The notes below the pieces were generated by a model. The model did not search any database and was not told where the DNA came from. It saw only the letters and a list, made by a program, of their open reading frames with translations. A stretch of 52,380 bases of DNA from NCBI GenBank assembly GCA_947462105.1, contig CANHNJ010000017.1, forward strand, positions 1-52,380. Reading direction: 5' to 3'. The position numbers and the translations under genes are program-made. The stretch comes from Alphaproteobacteria bacterium (GTDB lineage Bacteria > Pseudomonadota > Alphaproteobacteria > Micropepsales > Micropepsaceae). Positions 42,975 through 52,380 of this stretch are shown here, in pieces (within the stretch, counting starts at the first letter, position 1; the number at the start of each line of letters is the position of its first letter).

Positions 42975-43099
42975 GCCAAAATATACAATATATATCAATG
43001 GGTTGTGCGCGCCGGAAACGCTGGCCCGGCACCGACGAAAATGCTAGGAATCAGCTCTATTTTTTCGCCTGCTTCGGGCAGGTTTTGCGAGGGTATTTT

Positions 43100-45813
<2,714 letters not shown>

Positions 45814-45817
<4 letters not shown>

Positions 45818-46344
45818 GTAAGACGCGCGTCGGCCTTTATCCAGGCACCTTTGATCCCGTCACGCTGGGTCATGTCGACATCATCAAGCGCGCGGTGAAG
45901 CTGGTCGATCACCTGGTGCTTGGCGTCGCCATCAATGCGTCCAAGGACCCTATGTTCAGCCTCGACGAACGGGTATCGATGCTGAAGGCTGAAGCCGAAA
46001 GCCTGGGCGACGGGCGCGCCACCATCGAGGTGCGGCCGTTCGCAACGCTGCTCGTGAAGTTCGCCGAGGAGGTCGGCGCCTCCGTCATTATTCGCGGTCT
46101 GCGAGCCGTGTCCGACTTCGAATATGAATTCCAGATGGTCGCGATGAACCAGCGGCTTTCCAGCGAGATCGAGACCGTGTTTCTCATGGCCGATCCGCGC
46201 CACCAGGCCATCGCCTCGCGCCTGGTCAAGGAAATCGCCATGCTGGGCGGCGACATCTCAGCCTTCACCACGCCCGCTGTGGCGGATGCTCTTCTCAAAC
46301 GATGCCAAGAGCAGAATATGAAACACAACAAGGGACGCGCATAA
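45814..46344 (+). CDS. coaD: Phosphopantetheine adenylyltransferase
   Basis: CoaD adenylylates 4'-phosphopantetheine in CoA synthesis. The 176-residue protein has [21 protein letters not shown] with the T/HxGH nucleotidyl-transferase motif, [25 protein letters not shown], and the C-terminal [17 protein letters not shown]. It is coupled to gyrA by an ATGA overlap, and the cyclophilin ATG follows its stop directly. Confidence 0.97.
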
Positions 46345-46815
46345 ATGGCCGACTATCTCATTCTCGAACTCAAGGACGGGCCGGTGAAGATCAAGCTGCG
46401 CCCCGATCTGGCGCCGGAGCATGTCGAGCGCGTCAAGACGCTGGCCGGCCAGGGCTTCTATGACGGCATCGTGTTCCACCGCGTCATTCCGGGTTTCATG
46501 GCCCAGACCGGCGATCCCACCGGCACCGGCTCGGGCGGCTCCGACCTGCCAAACCTCAAGGCCGAGTTCTCGAACGAGCCCCATAAGAAGGGCACCTGTT
46601 CAGCGGCGCGCACGGCCAACCCGAACAGTGCCAACAGCCAGTTCTATATCTGCTTCGATGACGCGCCCTGGCTGGACAAGCAGTATTCGGTCTGGGGCCA
46701 GGTCGAGGAAGGCATGGACAATGTCGACAAGATCAAGAAGGGCGGCGAGCACAATAACGGCACGATCTCGGGGGAACCCGACAAGATCCTGAAGGCCCGC
46801 ATCGAAACCGTCTGA
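46345..46815 (+). CDS. Cyclophilin-type peptidyl-prolyl cis-trans isomerase
   Basis: The 156-residue protein has a single cyclophilin domain without a signal peptide, so it is probably cytoplasmic. Active-site segments are visible: YDGIVFHRVIPGFMAQTGDPTGTGSGG (the Arg/Phe cluster), CSAARTANPNSANSQFYICF, and QYSVWGQVEEGMDNV. Its start codon directly follows the coaD stop, so the gyrA-coaD-ppi genes are one transcription unit. Confidence 0.93.
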   Translation: MADYLILELKDGPVKIKLRPDLAPEHVERVKTLAGQGFYDGIVFHRVIPGFMAQTGDPTGTGSGGSDLPNLKAEFSNEPHKKGTCSAARTANPNSANSQFYICFDDAPWLDKQYSVWGQVEEGMDNVDKIKKGGEHNNGTISGEPDKILKARIETV

Positions 46816-46830
46816 TCAAAAGGGCAGCCC

Positions 46831-48108
46831 ATGTCGCAGTCCCCGCTGACTGTTTCGCTCGACCTTGCGCTTAGCGGCAAGGGCGCTCCGCCCAGGGCTG
46901 ACTATGATGCGTCACTGGGCGCGGCGGTGGGGGCGCTGGCATGGCTGCGCCAGCAGGCGGCGGACAAGTCGCTGGAGCTGCTGGGCGTCCCGGCGCGTAC
47001 CGATGACATCCGCAAGGCGCGAGCCAGGGCTAAGGAGATTGCGGCCAGTGCCAATAGGGTTGTCGTGCTGGGGATTGGCGGTTCCAGCCTGGGCGGGCAG
47101 GCGCTGACGGCGCTGCGGAAGAACGCCGTGCCCTTCGTAGAATTCTACGATAATCCAGATCCCTTCAGCTGGACGGCGGCGCTGAAGCGCTTCGACCTGA
47201 AAAAGACCCACTTCATCGCCATCTCGAAGTCAGGCGGCACCGCTGAAGTGATGATGCAGGTGCTGCCTTTGGTCGAAATGCTGAAGAAGGCGGGCGTCCG
47301 CAACATCGGCAAGCATTTCACAATCATCACCGAGCCGCATGACAGTGCCCTGGCGGCGTTCGCCGACAGCATCAAGGCGCCCAAGCTTGATCATCCGCTG
47401 GGCGTTGGCGGGCGTTACTCGGTTCTGACCATGGTGGGGCTTCTGCCCGCCATTCTGATGGGCATTGACGTGAAGCAGCTGCGCGCGGGCGCGGCCGCCG
47501 TGCTGGCGCAGACGCTGGGGGCGAAATCGCCTGCCGACAGCCCCGCCGCGACCGGGGCGGCGCTGCATCACGCGCTGGCGAAGCAAGGCAGGCTCGCCAA
47601 TACCATTCTGTGGCCCTATTGCGATGCGCTGGCCGTGTTCGGCGGCTGGTGGAAGCAGCTCTGGGCCGAAAGCCTGGGCAAGGACGGGCAGGGCTCCACG
47701 CCTGTCTCCGTGCTTGGCCCGGTGGACCAGCACAGCCAGCTCCAGCTTTTTCGCGATGGTCCGAACAATGCGCTGTTCACTTTGGTGACGATTGACATGA
47801 AGGGCCATGGCCCAGTGGTGCCTAAGGCGTCGGCAAAGGCGCTAGGCCAAGATTATCTCGCCGGCAAGCGGCCGGGCGACCTGATCGCGGCGCAGTCGCG
47901 CGGCACGGCGCAGACCCTGTTCAATAATGGCCGCCCGGTGCGCATGATCCATGTGAAGAAGGTGGACGCCTTCAGCATGGGCGCGCTGATGATGCATTTC
48001 ATGCTGGAGACCATCATCATGGGCCGTCTGATGGGGGTTAACCCTTTCGATCAGCCCGGCGTTGAAGAGGCCAAGATTTTGGCACGGCAATATCTGTCTC
48101 AGAAGTAG
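46831..48108 (+). CDS. pgi: Glucose-6-phosphate isomerase (short form)
   Basis: Pgi interconverts glucose-6-phosphate and fructose-6-phosphate. The protein is 425 residues, well below the ~550 of E. coli and nearer the shorter bacterial class. It shows SIS-fold motifs GIGGSSLGGQALTALR, FIAISKSGGTAEVMMQVLPL, and GGRYSVLTMVGLLPA, with an active-site GPVDQHSQLQLFRDG. A GGGCAG site precedes the ATG. It is the last gene with the GC-rich codon use of the core; the accessory block begins after its stop. Confidence 0.92.
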   Translation: MSQSPLTVSLDLALSGKGAPPRADYDASLGAAVGALAWLRQQAADKSLELLGVPARTDDIRKARARAKEIAASANRVVVLGIGGSSLGGQALTALRKNAVPFVEFYDNPDPFSWTAALKRFDLKKTHFIAISKSGGTAEVMMQVLPLVEMLKKAGVRNIGKHFTIITEPHDSALAAFADSIKAPKLDHPLGVGGRYSVLTMVGLLPAILMGIDVKQLRAGAAAVLAQTLGAKSPADSPAATGAALHHALAKQGRLANTILWPYCDALAVFGGWWKQLWAESLGKDGQGSTPVSVLGPVDQHSQLQLFRDGPNNALFTLVTIDMKGHGPVVPKASAKALGQDYLAGKRPGDLIAAQSRGTAQTLFNNGRPVRMIHVKKVDAFSMGALMMHFMLETIIMGRLMGVNPFDQPGVEEAKILARQYLSQK

Positions 48109-48157
48109 CCCATAGATAATCTGCGCCGCCTTGTGAGTTTTACTTAGAGAGATATGG

Positions 48158-49600
48158 ATGTCACAAAAAACTGGACAGATGGTTCCCGTCATTTTGTCTG
48201 GTGGCTCCGGAACACGCCTGTGGCCACTTTCCCGTAAGGCTATGCCCAAGCAGCTCCTGGCACTGGTCGGCGAGAACACCATGATCCAAGACACCGTTGC
48301 CAGAGCACGGGGTGATGATTTTTCTGCGCCTCTCATAATCTCCAATCAAGATCACCGCTTTGTCGTCGCCGAACAATTGCGCGCGCAGGGTATTGAAGGC
48401 GCTCGCATCATCTTAGAGCCCATTGGCCGCAACACCGCACCCGCCGCGGCCATCGCCGCCCTTCAGGTCTCGTCAGAAGACCCTGAGGCGTTAGTTCTTC
48501 TGATGCCCTCCGATCATGTCGTATTGGACCAACCCGCCTTCCTGGCCGCTGTGACAGCAGCACGCCATGCAGCCTTGGGCGGGGCCCTTGTGACCTTCGG
48601 CATCAAGCCGTCATCTGCGCAGACGGGCTATGGATACATCAAGGCCGGTACAGCTCTTGTTGGAGCTCCCGGCGCACTCACCGTTGAGCGCTTTGTGGAA
48701 AAACCTGACCGCGCGACAGCGGAGGGATACGTCGCCTCTGGGAATTATTTTTGGAACAGCGGCATGTTTCTCTTCCGAGCGGTGACGCTCTTGGAAGAGC
48801 TTGAACGGCTGCAGCCGGGCATGTTGGCCCTCTGCCGCAGTGCTCTGAAAAGTGCGCATCGTGACATGGACTTTATCCGACTAGATGAGACTGCCTTTGC
48901 GTCGTGCCCGTCAGATTCAATTGACTACGCCGTAATGGAGCATGCGAGGAGCGCCGCAGTAGTGCCGGTTGAGATGGGCTGGAATGACGTCGGCTCCTGG
49001 CAGTCTCTGTGGGACATTGCGGAGCGCACTGGTGAGGGCAATGCCCTTCAAGGTGACGTCGTGATTGAGGGTGTGCGAAATTCTTACTTGCGCAGTGATG
49101 GTCCCCTGCTTGCGGCCGTGGGCGTGGAAGACTTGATCATCGTTGCCACCAAGGACGCGGTTCTTGTCAGTCACCGTGATGCGTCCCAAGACGTTAAGAA
49201 AATCGTTGAGCAGTTGGATGGAGCAGGCCGCCAACATCACATGCTCCACCCGCGTGTCCACCGCCCATGGGGCACCTATGAGGGCGTTGACAGCGGGAAA
49301 AACTTTCAAGTGAAGCGCATTGTCGTCAATCCAGGGGCGAAGCTTTCACTGCAAATGCATCACCGCCGCGCAGAGCACTGGATTGTTGTTCAGGGCTCAG
49401 CCTTGGTGACGTGTGATGATCGCCAGTTTGTGTTAGAGGCCAATCAATCCACTTACATTCCTCTGGGCGCTAAGCACCGATTAGAAAATACTGGCACGCT
49501 GCCGCTTCAGCTGATCGAGGTGCAGTCGGGCGACTACCTGGGTGAGGATGACATTGTGCGCTTTGAGGATTCTTATGGACGCGTACCTAAGCCCGCATAA
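48158..49600 (+). CDS. manC: Mannose-1-phosphate guanylyltransferase / mannose-6-phosphate isomerase
   Basis: This is the bifunctional ManC/AlgA/XanB type that makes GDP-mannose. The 480-residue protein has the nucleotidyl-transferase domain (GGSGTRLWPLSRKAMPKQLLAL; LMPSDHV; VERFVEKPD; ENYFWNSGMF-like GNYFWNSGMFLFRA) and a C-terminal cupin isomerase domain (PWGTYEGVDSGKNFQVKRI, LSLQMHHRRAEHWIVVQG). GC is visibly lower than upstream (for example 29 of 60 bases in 48841-48900), and AT-ending codons are frequent. It is probably used for surface polysaccharide, together with the next gene. Confidence 0.93.
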   Translation: MSQKTGQMVPVILSGGSGTRLWPLSRKAMPKQLLALVGENTMIQDTVARARGDDFSAPLIISNQDHRFVVAEQLRAQGIEGARIILEPIGRNTAPAAAIAALQVSSEDPEALVLLMPSDHVVLDQPAFLAAVTAARHAALGGALVTFGIKPSSAQTGYGYIKAGTALVGAPGALTVERFVEKPDRATAEGYVASGNYFWNSGMFLFRAVTLLEELERLQPGMLALCRSALKSAHRDMDFIRLDETAFASCPSDSIDYAVMEHARSAAVVPVEMGWNDVGSWQSLWDIAERTGEGNALQGDVVIEGVRNSYLRSDGPLLAAVGVEDLIIVATKDAVLVSHRDASQDVKKIVEQLDGAGRQHHMLHPRVHRPWGTYEGVDSGKNFQVKRIVVNPGAKLSLQMHHRRAEHWIVVQGSALVTCDDRQFVLEANQSTYIPLGAKHRLENTGTLPLQLIEVQSGDYLGEDDIVRFEDSYGRVPKPA

Positions 49601-49673
49601 CCTCTCTTAATTTATGTTGTTTGTTTGCCAGACTTTTTCGCTTTTAAATTTTGTACTCTTGATTTGGTGACTT

Positions 49674-50801
49674 GTGAGCCAGCCCATTTCCTTCATTGAC
49701 CTGCAAGCTCAGCGCCGCCGTCTCGGTGAGCCACTCAATCGTGCCATTCAAGCCGCAGTGGAGGGCGGGCAGTGGATCTTGGGTCCCCAAGTGGCGCAGT
49801 TTGAGAAAGACATTGCAGCCTGGGCGGGTGTTAAGCACGCAATTTCCTGCGCCAATGGCACCGACGCGTTGCTCCTAGTGCTGCGGGCCTGGGGCGTTGG
49901 TCCGGGTGATGCGGTGTTTGTTCCCTCTTTCACGTTTGCCGCGACGGCTGAAGTCGTGGCGCTGGCCGGAGCTTCCCCCGTCTTTGTCGATGTTCTCCCC
50001 GACACCTTCAACATGGATCCCGCAAGTTTAGACGCTGCCATTGCGCTAGTGAGGCGTGAAGGCACGCTGACGCCAAAAGTTGTCATGCCAGTTGATCTAT
50101 TTGGACAGCCCGCGGACTACCGCGCGCTTTCTCCCATTGCAGCGCGCGAGGGCCTAAAACTTTTCTGCGACTCTGCGCAGGGCTTTGGTGGATTGCTGGA
50201 TAACAAACGCACGGGCTCCATCGGAGATGCCTCTGCGACCAGCTTTTTTCCAGCCAAGCCTCTGGGCTGCTACGGCGATGGCGGGGCCTGCTTCACCAAT
50301 GACGATGAGCTCCGAGACATCCTCTTGTCACTGCGCATGCACGGCCAGGGTAGTGACCGCTACGAGCATGTGCGCGTGGGATACAATTCACGCCTCGACA
50401 CAATCCAGGCCGCGATCCTCATCGAGAAGCTCAAAATCTTTGACGATGAGATTGAGGCGCGCAACCGCGTCGCGCGTCGCTACAACGACGCCTTCTTCTC
50501 TTCCAAGAAGATTACGTTCCCTTTTGTGATTGCGGGCGCCGTCTCGACCTGGGCCCAGTACACCCTGCAGGTCGAAGACCGCACGCGCTTCCAAGCTGAC
50601 CTCAAGGCGGCGGGTGTCCCAACGGCCGTCTACTATCCGATCCCGCTCTCCAAGCAGGTGGCCTATGCCCACTACCCCAGTGTCCCAACTCCAGTGAGTG
50701 AGGCGCTGTCGGCTAAGGTTGTCAGTCTTCCCATGCACCCCTACCTCGAGCCGGACACACAAGACCGGATCATCGCCGCTGTTCTCTCAAGCGCGGGATA
50801 A
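49674..50801 (+). CDS. DegT/DnrJ/EryC1/StrS aminotransferase (WbpE/WlbC-like)
   Basis: These PLP enzymes aminate nucleotide-linked keto sugars. The 375-residue protein starts at GTG 49674. It shows ISFIDLQAQRRRLG, GQWILGPQVAQFEKDIAAW, CANGTDALLLVLRAWGVGPGD, the PLP-Lys region SFFPAKPLGCYGDGGACF, and the GYNSRLDTIQAAIL block. This pattern is closest, by eye, to WbpE/WlbC enzymes that act on UDP-2-acetamido-3-oxo-glucuronate, but other members are close. The other genes of such a pathway are not in the window. An AT-rich 73-base gap precedes it. Confidence 0.88.
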   Translation: MSQPISFIDLQAQRRRLGEPLNRAIQAAVEGGQWILGPQVAQFEKDIAAWAGVKHAISCANGTDALLLVLRAWGVGPGDAVFVPSFTFAATAEVVALAGASPVFVDVLPDTFNMDPASLDAAIALVRREGTLTPKVVMPVDLFGQPADYRALSPIAAREGLKLFCDSAQGFGGLLDNKRTGSIGDASATSFFPAKPLGCYGDGGACFTNDDELRDILLSLRMHGQGSDRYEHVRVGYNSRLDTIQAAILIEKLKIFDDEIEARNRVARRYNDAFFSSKKITFPFVIAGAVSTWAQYTLQVEDRTRFQADLKAAGVPTAVYYPIPLSKQVAYAHYPSVPTPVSEALSAKVVSLPMHPYLEPDTQDRIIAAVLSSAG

Positions 50802-50885: not shown

Positions 50886-51197
50886 TTATTTTCTTGGAGA
50901 CTTTTGGCTTCGTTTCGCGGATTTTCTTTTCGGGATGGGATCCCGTTCTGCTGCTAGGCGCGTTGAAAGTTCTCTTGAGAGCTGAATGCCGGCACCGCGT
51001 GTTTCATTTTCATAAATGAAAGTTAAGCCCTCCTTAGCAAAGGCATGCTCAAGCCTTTCCGCTGTGCTGAATAGAATTCCTTTCCCCGACTCGAATCTAA
51101 CGATCGTGTTCTTATTTATCCCTGTCATCTTTTGAAGTTCCGACAAGCTCCAATCCAGAGCTGCTCGCGCCATGCGGCATTGCTCTGGCTTCAGCAT
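50886..51197 (-). CDS. XRE-family helix-turn-helix regulator
   Basis: The 103-residue protein has a Cro/CI-type HTH in residues ~3-60: PEQCRMARAALDWSLSELQ, TGINKNTIVRFESGKG, and AERLEHAFAKEGLTFI. A charged, Lys/Arg/Ser-rich tail follows. It is divergent from the Gp157-like gene, with an 80-base gap containing a palindrome on the promoter. It probably represses that promoter, and perhaps its own (minus-strand TATAAT at 51233-51228). It is a standard arrangement for a mobile-element switch. Confidence 0.85.
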   Translation of the reverse strand: MLKPEQCRMARAALDWSLSELQKMTGINKNTIVRFESGKGILFSTAERLEHAFAKEGLTFIYENETRGAGIQLSRELSTRLAAERDPIPKRKSAKRSQKSPRK

Positions 51198-51201
51198 GGG
51201 C

Positions 51202-51230
51202 TTGACAGCCTCCGCTCCAGTTGGTATATT
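51202..51230 (+). promoter_or_regulatory. Strong sigma70 promoter of the Gp157-rad52 operon
   Basis: TTGACA (51202-51207) is a perfect -35, and TATATT (51225-51230) follows after 17 bases. An AGGAG ribosome site (51265-51269) and the GTG start at 51278 come next. It is the best promoter match in the window and lies on top of the palindrome at 51219-51239. Confidence 0.75.
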
Positions 51231-51239
51231 ATACTAACT
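51219..51239. promoter_or_regulatory. Operator-like palindrome for the divergent XRE regulator
   Basis: The 10-bp arms AGTTGGTATA (51219-51228) and TATACTAACT (51230-51239) are inverted copies with one mismatch around a central T. They cover the -10 of the rightward promoter and the TATAAT of a leftward one. A weaker related dyad, AAACT-AGG-AGTTT (51260-51272), covers the ribosome site downstream. Binding by the adjacent XRE protein is inferred. Confidence 0.65.
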
Positions 51240-51277
51240 AATGAATCAATCATACTATAAAACTAGGAGTTTATACT

Positions 51278-51787
51278 GTGATGGGGCCAAGCAACCTAAA
51301 GTTTGAAGTGACTAATTATCAGATTCTTGCCCAGGAGCTAAAAGACCGCTTTGGAGAGCTCGACCATGAGACCCTCCAAGACACGCTGGAGGGGATCTCC
51401 CGCCTTCCTGAGGCCATCGGGGCAGTCCTGCGCTCCTCTCTAGAGGATGAGGCCCTGATCGGGTCTCTGAAGGCCCGCCTCAATGACTTGGACGTCAGAC
51501 TTGAGCGGCTCCGGGGGCGCTACGCCGCAAAGCGTGAGCTTGTCCGGTGGGCTATGGATAGGTCTGGCCTCTCCAAGCTCCAGGCGGAGGATTTTTCAGC
51601 AAGCCTGCGAAAGTCCCCAGACAAGCTTGAAGTCCTCAGTGAGGATTTGATCCCGGCCAATTATTTTACGCCCCAGCCACCCCGACTGGACCGGCGGGGC
51701 CTGGCGGATGCCTTAAAGGGCGGGGCAAGCGTTGAGGGCGCGCGTCTCTTGGAGGGGGAATTGTCTCTCTCGGTGCGCGTGCGATGA
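51278..51787 (+). CDS. Siphovirus Gp157-like protein
   Basis: The 169-residue protein matches the Sipho_Gp157 family: FGELDHETLQDTLEGI at the N-terminus, a long central coiled coil (LKARLNDLDVRLERLRGRYAAKR), then SLRKSPDKLEVLSEDLIPANYF, PRLDRRGLADALKGG and VEGARL. The function of the family is not firmly known; it occurs in phage DNA-metabolism modules. The start is GTG 51278, 8 bases after AGGAG. Its TGA overlaps the rad52 ATG as ATGA. Confidence 0.88.
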   Translation: MMGPSNLKFEVTNYQILAQELKDRFGELDHETLQDTLEGISRLPEAIGAVLRSSLEDEALIGSLKARLNDLDVRLERLRGRYAAKRELVRWAMDRSGLSKLQAEDFSASLRKSPDKLEVLSEDLIPANYFTPQPPRLDRRGLADALKGGASVEGARLLEGELSLSVRVR

Positions 51788-52380
51788 GCAGCTTTTCTCC
51801 AACACAGCTCAAGAAGCTGACGTCCAAACTGGATTGGCGGCATGTGCAGTCCCGAATGCTGGAGGAGCGCCAGATTGATTATATCGAGGGCTGGTTCGCC
51901 GTCTCGGAGGCCAATTCCATTTTTGGATTTTCTGGATGGGACCGGCACACCCAGCACATTGAGCGCATCTTTGAGAGGGCTAGGGGGGAGGTGACACACT
52001 GCACCTACTTGGCGCGGGTGTGCATTCAAGTGCGGGCAGGGGGCGGGGTGGTCTGGCGCGAGGGCACGGGTACTGGCTCAGCGGCATCGCGCAATCCTGC
52101 GGAGGCCCACGACCGCGCCATCAAGGCGGCAGAGACCGACGCCACAAAGCGGGCGCTTTCAACGTTTGGCAATCGCTTTGGCCTGTGCCTTTACGACCGC
52201 GAGCGCAGGGGAGTTGAGGATGCACCCCAGAGTGGGGGCGCCAAAGACTTCAAATTAATTGCGGCGGATGGAATTTTATTGGACGGCACGCTCTCGGCGG
52301 AGGACTTCTGTACGGGCCTGCGCAAATTGGTTGATGTCGCGGCGGCACCAGAAGAAGTTGACGCCCTAAAACTCTCTAAT
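51784..52380 (+). CDS. Rad52/Rad22-family single-strand annealing protein (3' end outside window)
   Basis: The frame is open for 199 codons to the window end. Residues ~25-60 read RMLEERQIDYIEGWFAVSEANSIFGF followed by SGWDRHTQHIERI, the hallmark of the Rad52 annealing core. CTYLARVCIQVRAGGGVVWREGTGTGS is the beta-hairpin region, and AHDRAIKAAETDATKRALSTFGNRFGLCLYD the helical end of the domain. Such proteins act in phage recombination, annealing complementary strands. It is coupled to the Gp157-like gene, so both are expressed from the regulated promoter. The C-terminal part is not visible. Confidence 0.88.
   Translation, partial: MSSFSPTQLKKLTSKLDWRHVQSRMLEERQIDYIEGWFAVSEANSIFGFSGWDRHTQHIERIFERARGEVTHCTYLARVCIQVRAGGGVVWREGTGTGSAASRNPAEAHDRAIKAAETDATKRALSTFGNRFGLCLYDRERRGVEDAPQSGGAKDFKLIAADGILLDGTLSAEDFCTGLRKLVDVAAAPEEVDALKLSN

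Follow-up and report, generated by a model that had tools for sequence, protein, structure and literature searches.

Gene organization of the locus

The window, that is, the whole stretch of 52,380 nucleotides that was analyzed (open reading frames were read from 44 kb onward), ends in a compact set of genes, hereafter the cassette, in which a Gp157-family gene and a Rad52-family gene face a repressor-like gene of the XRE family. The features of this part of the window are the following:

42998..50801, forward strand: gyrA–coaD–ppi–pgi–manC–DegT, chromosomal context; start of a genus-conserved gyrA-to-tgt region
50886..51197, reverse strand: XRE-family (HTH_3) repressor-like gene, 103 aa, PF01381 at 3.7e-7, without a visible peptidase domain
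51202..51230, forward strand: sigma-70-like promoter for the Gp157 gene, TTGACA-17-TATATT, 11/12 matches
about 51219..51239, no strand: imperfect palindrome AGTTGGTATATTATACTAACT covering the -10 box, presumed operator
51278..51787, forward strand: Gp157-family gene, 169 aa, GTG start, PF05565 at 3.5e-21
51784..52380, forward strand: Rad52-family annealing domain, 199 aa seen, gene cut by the contig end, PF04098 at 1.1e-28

In profile searches, the Gp157 protein scored 76.3 bits against PF05565 (Sipho_Gp157; curated cut-off 28.6) and matched the PHROG family phrog_253, "Mu Gam-like end protection" (7.6e-22). For the Rad52 protein, PF04098 was the sole Pfam family up to E = 1 (100.6 bits; curated cut-off 20.3), and the best matches among solved structures were yeast RAD52 (3.7e-17) and human RAD52 (1.3e-11). 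The cut-off of the narrower NCBIfam model TIGR00607 (rad52 subfamily), 224.8 bits, lies above both the window protein (71.8) and a related one from locus L014 (76.2). A preliminary description of this DNA had proposed that a phage-type recombination pair, its two genes coupled by an ATGA overlap, lies behind an XRE gene, and had named a top profile match other than Rad52/Rad22 as evidence against itself; the families found (PF05565, PF04098, HTH_3), the overlap at 51784–51787 and the RAD52 structures bear this out.

The contig ends at position 52380, part of the way through the Rad52 gene, so that what follows lies outside view. In the visible part, the operon partner of Rad52 is Gp157 and not an exonuclease. 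No second Rad52 or HNH piece and no tgt were found in the whole assembly, and an ARAGORN scan of the window returned no tRNA. The GC content falls from about 0.65 to 0.54–0.57 from 48 kb onward, so that the drop starts in manC and DegT, ahead of the cassette.

Promoter and putative operator

The same description spoke of a strong, operator-covered promoter. The promoter stands, with 11 of 12 consensus positions, and the 1.7 kb around the cassette hold two promoter-like sites against 0.6 in shuffled sequences; "operator-covered" comes down to one imperfect palindrome over the -10 box, whose score was equalled in 4% of shuffles. Comparison with relatives adds to this picture. TTGAC-type promoters occur in 11 of 27 HTH–Gp157 intergenic regions (0.8 expected), the best palindrome lies at most 60 bases downstream of the promoter in all 11 promoter-bearing regions, and the palindrome scores across the relatives' regions combine to p = 8e-8. 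The predicted promoter–operator layout recurs among relatives.

A Rad52–HNH fusion under purifying selection

Full-length relatives in the genus (362–515 aa as read) consist of the Rad52 domain followed by a C-terminal HNH domain of the DUF968 family (PF06147). Across an alignment of 27 full-length proteins, picked for having both domains, eight Cys/His columns (C323, C326, H334, H335, C357, H360, H361, and H365) and the core Rad52 columns are invariant in 27/27. Because the relatives carry this fusion, an HNH domain is expected after position 52380 in the cut Rad52 gene of the window. This fusion, along with the stand-alone distribution described below, is what the module as first described lacked.

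The dN/dS values range from 0.05 to 0.27 in six Gp157 and three Rad52–HNH comparisons, and the cassette genes are under purifying selection. Two loci, L068 and L054, appear frame-broken.

Distribution of the cassette

Within the order, the Rad52 protein was found in 10 of 96 genomes, all of them in the genus of the window (10/69), and was absent from the 27 genomes of six other genera. A scan of GTDB genomes added 39 further or overlapping loci, whose titles are alphaproteobacterial or, for some, merely Proteobacteria. One carrier available in culture is Bauldia litoralis ATCC 35022 (L041). In a census of 40 Rad52-domain loci including the window (8 of them genus loci), for which the queries derived from these same loci, Gp157 is present in 37, a divergent XRE/HTH gene in 28, a RarA-like gene in 4, and the HNH domain in 34; of the six HNH-less loci, five are cut at a contig end. 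A sample of 387 genomes of the class yielded the Rad52 part in six, two of them already in the set, an ERF–HNH protein in two, and a DUF968-type match alone in seven.

Variant scaffolds and accessory proteins

The upstream position can be occupied by another gene. At the following loci, a RarA/MgsA C-terminal-like gene (best match 2.2e-6), transcribed in the same direction, replaces the HTH gene upstream of Gp157:

L018:6504-7664, RarA/MgsA C-terminal-like gene
L020:6071-7198, RarA/MgsA C-terminal-like gene
L021:2635-3840, RarA/MgsA C-terminal-like gene
L024:12384-13577, RarA/MgsA C-terminal-like gene

Two proteins, termed F3 and F4, are found around cassettes. F4 often accompanies the cassette: it was recovered from 17 of the 38 genomes with a cassette (the model was built from 12), and 289 genomes sampled from the class yielded a weak part-match in one genome and nothing else. 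F3, recognized by the motif TGPRT...GKA...N..KHG, lies downstream of some cassettes (L026:3316-5270, L019:10275-10973), occurs twice in genome G053, and has no Pfam match. Both proteins are predicted to be helical, and their predicted structures gave no fold match in the PDB at E ≤ 0.001.

In G418 (L153:5531-10054) and G441 (L152:2459-7130), the same F3–F4–HTH scaffold carries instead a YqaJ exonuclease together with an ERF protein fused to DUF968. In a search of one further locus, L064, a YqaJ-like remnant (45 aa, 47% identity, E = 3e-5) was found between the HTH gene and Gp157; this locus may be a prophage, and the remnant may be the trace of a part swap.

Chromosomal setting in the genus

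The gene order gyrA–coaD–ppi–(pgi)–(manC)–DegT–queA–tgt is recurrent in the genus, and the cassette is found at different points along it: between ppi and DegT in G072, between ppi and manC in G071, and after DegT in the window, where it probably also sits inside the conserved gyrA–coaD–ppi–DegT–queA–tgt region. In G031 it lies near manC and galE, and in G035 near queA and DegT. Among 20 fetched DegT regions, 16 have ppi and DegT and lack the cassette. The gene content of the DegT–queA gap differs between relatives, which marks the region as a place of gene turnover. Between related species, sugar and other genes are gained or lost in the gyrA-to-tgt interval (window:42998-50801, L108–L127).

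In eight genomes, the similarity of the cassette to that of the window is uncorrelated with the similarity of DegT (Spearman -0.17, p = 0.69), and neither the upstream form (HTH or RarA-like) nor Rad52 similarity tracks DegT similarity.

Relationship to phages

The preliminary description saw here the visible edge of a phage, and named as evidence against itself housekeeping genes following the cassette without mobile context. Such genes are what follows in two relatives, G072 and G071, where DegT, queA, and tgt come after the cassette and housekeeping genes flank it on either side. The 95 Phage_integrase matches (E ≤ 1e-6) of 12 cassette genomes all lie off the 10 genus contigs that carry a cassette (8 to 606 kb), and in G219 and G418, whose genomes are closed, none lies within 100 kb of the cassette. 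Of the 18 Phage_portal places detected across 38 cassette genomes, not one is on a contig that could be matched to a cassette. The phage-edge claim is left unsupported by these counts. The flanks of the cassettes (104 ORFs, 32 loci) encode mostly metabolic and sugar-nucleotide Pfam families among the 25 listed of 121.

Some copies have a different setting. Among the best 25 of 65 PHROG families in the flanks, the phage-type matches traced were a terminase at L064, an integrase at L044, and a primase-helicase at L040; a CI-like repressor lies near the cassette of L043. Since at least these four loci adjoin phage or integrase genes, some of the copies may be parts of prophages or islands. In separate observations, the YqaJ-like remnant of L064 (L064:3410-4741) lies 1.4 kb from the terminase gene, and a Phage_integrase match is found about 0.9 kb away from a weak, stop-containing Rad52 match at L013 (G035:C2:246320-247928).

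In viral databases, the window Rad52 protein itself found no relative in IMG/VR, and an alignment-based search (A1) recovered 39 loci encoding a Rad52 domain. The ORFs picked at 31 of these are at most 306 aa long, and a fused HNH domain was not seen in any of the 31. At 9 of the 39, the fetched DNA also encodes Gp157, and separate HNH genes lie near Rad52 in a few. The closest GenBank phages reach at most about 40–45% identity to the Rad52 domain. In a Rad52 tree of 75 rows (sequences that were too short or contained stops were left out), one branch separates 37 viral sequences from 36 cassettes plus two others (L039/L043), with a support of 82, which is not high; the genus sequences form a clade of 10 (support 96).

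These data bear on the view that the window holds the recombination genes of a prophage or integrative element, intact or decaying, the rest of which lies past the contig end. The gene families are indeed of phage type, the four loci and the nine IMG/VR loci above offer precedents, as do the few with separate HNH genes, and the contig of the window does end at 52380. However, the lack of integrase matches on the 10 genus contigs and of portal matches on cassette-matched contigs in 38 genomes, the housekeeping genes that flank the cassettes of G072 and G071 on either side, and the purifying selection make this explanation unlikely.

Copies, mobility, and defense

Cassette copies at separate sites of the same genome are alike: in one case the identity is 92% over 1652 bp, and in another, where the match spans HTH to HNH, it is 82% over 1781 bp. 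Such copies, the differing positions in the gyrA–tgt region (G071, G072, and the window), and the absence of correlation with DegT would suit a small autonomous mobile element, in which the HNH domain would open a target and Rad52 would anneal a copy into it, so that the XRE–Gp157–Rad52–HNH unit would spread by itself. However, terminal repeats or target duplications are not established, empty and filled sites being too diverged for their junctions to be read, and the excess of contig ends at the cassettes is weak: an end lies within 500 bp at 8/40 loci against 3.5 expected (p = 0.02), and inside the gene at 5 against 5.8. We consider such an element distinctly improbable. The contig-end excess was also tried as a sign of many copies and was rejected on the latter count.

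Least probable of all is a unit for anti-phage or anti-plasmid defense by annealing and cutting of incoming DNA, which the patchy occurrence (10/69 in the genus, 6/387 in the class) and the compact operon with its repressor and nuclease might suggest, but these families are pro-replicative in phages, and in PADLOC 2023 the tested Gp157 and Rad52 proteins had no match up to E = 0.1, the HTH proteins alone matching weakly.

Possible association with surface-sugar genes

Surface-sugar genes number 19 in 404 kb of cassette flanks and 3 in 480 kb of reference DNA (p = 1e-4), the references being hand-picked from outside the cassette flanks and partly from contigs known for sugar genes. Counted by locus, they occur at 12/49 cassettes and 3/40 references (p = 0.03). 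Outside the genus, 8 such genes lie in 323 kb of flanks and 1 in 360 kb of references (p = 0.013), but by locus the counts are 6/40 and 1/30 (p = 0.11). The duplicates L052 and L055 were omitted from these counts. No member of the glycosyltransferase-1 family lies within 10 kb of a cassette among the matches listed. Overall, a link between the cassette and surface-sugar genes is at most suggestive. In G114 (L160:7502-12346) and G098 (L165:956-5585), broken HNH and F4/F3 pieces adjoin rmlABCD-type sugar operons.

A proposed role in strand-annealing recombination

What sequence comparison demonstrates, namely how the genes are ordered, the domain fusion of the relatives, a promoter overlapped by a palindrome, purifying selection, and a chromosomal location in the genus, points to a functional recombination cassette of phage origin that works by strand annealing, is repressed by the XRE protein, and lives mainly outside phages; we put the probability of this reading at roughly 0.65. 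In such a cassette, the XRE protein would bind the palindrome and hold the operon off until some signal is received. Complementary single strands would then be paired by the Rad52 ring independently of RecA, with the HNH domain cleaving branched or flapped intermediates and Gp157 perhaps protecting or readying DNA ends. The sister form, with YqaJ exonuclease and ERF–HNH in place of the pair, would constitute a resection-and-annealing set. The likely effect would be annealing recombination in bursts, across short or diverged homologies.

A wider hypothesis, which we advance tentatively and hold to be rather doubtful as a whole, is that XRE-switched annealase–nuclease cassettes (Rad52–HNH with Gp157 or ERF–HNH with YqaJ, often with F4/F3) left phages, move as a unit among alphaproteobacterial chromosomes, and, when induced, shuffle neighboring genes, especially those for surface polysaccharides. 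If so, the host or the cassette would gain a programmed burst of gene exchange.

Annealases of this kind have been studied as phage tools and are used for genome editing. If the cassette is a conserved, repressor-controlled chromosomal set, some bacteria would own a switchable, RecA-independent form of recombination. To our knowledge, recombineering tools for Alphaproteobacteria are scarce, and the cassette would supply new annealase–nuclease fusions for this purpose.

Comparison with known systems

As in the cassette described here, a phage recombination pair is kept in a bacterial chromosome in the case of RecET of the Rac prophage, which differs in its RecT fold and in belonging to a recognizable cryptic prophage. 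The capture of RecET is mentioned in the accessible text of PMC8987985. The SXT element likewise carries phage-type recombination proteins outside a phage, and recombination by its Bet/Exo proteins was demonstrated in E. coli (PMC3118119); as far as the available part of that source goes, this system combines an annealase of the Red-beta type with an exonuclease, resides on a large conjugative element, and is without an HNH fusion, unlike the cassette.

The closest counterparts in gene order are the Gp157/Gam–Erf or Rad52–ssb recombination modules of Firmicutes phages, in which sipho_gp157 lies upstream of the annealase and hnh genes lie downstream of some erf genes; bacterial SSAPs were omitted from that gene-context analysis, according to the consulted part of PMC8093625. 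Like these modules, the cassette pairs an annealase of the Rad52–Erf superfamily with Gp157 upstream; unlike them as they appear in the same part of the source, it has the HNH domain fused in relatives, an XRE gene facing the pair, and a mainly non-phage setting, and no ssb was noted adjoining it. Fusions of the DUF968 HNH domain (PF06147) to a recombination protein, as in the cassette, are also known from Orf-type mediators, and the accessible portion of PMC4118853 mentions Erf and Rad52 fusions in passing; that portion, unlike the present case, is without Rad52 gene context, a repressor, or a chromosomal cassette. A search of mostly openly available literature returned no paper joining Rad52, Gp157, and phage, and no title on such a chromosomal cassette. 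The parts of the cassette are already known, and its new aspect would be that of a variant, a predicted stand-alone chromosomal Rad52–HNH cassette.
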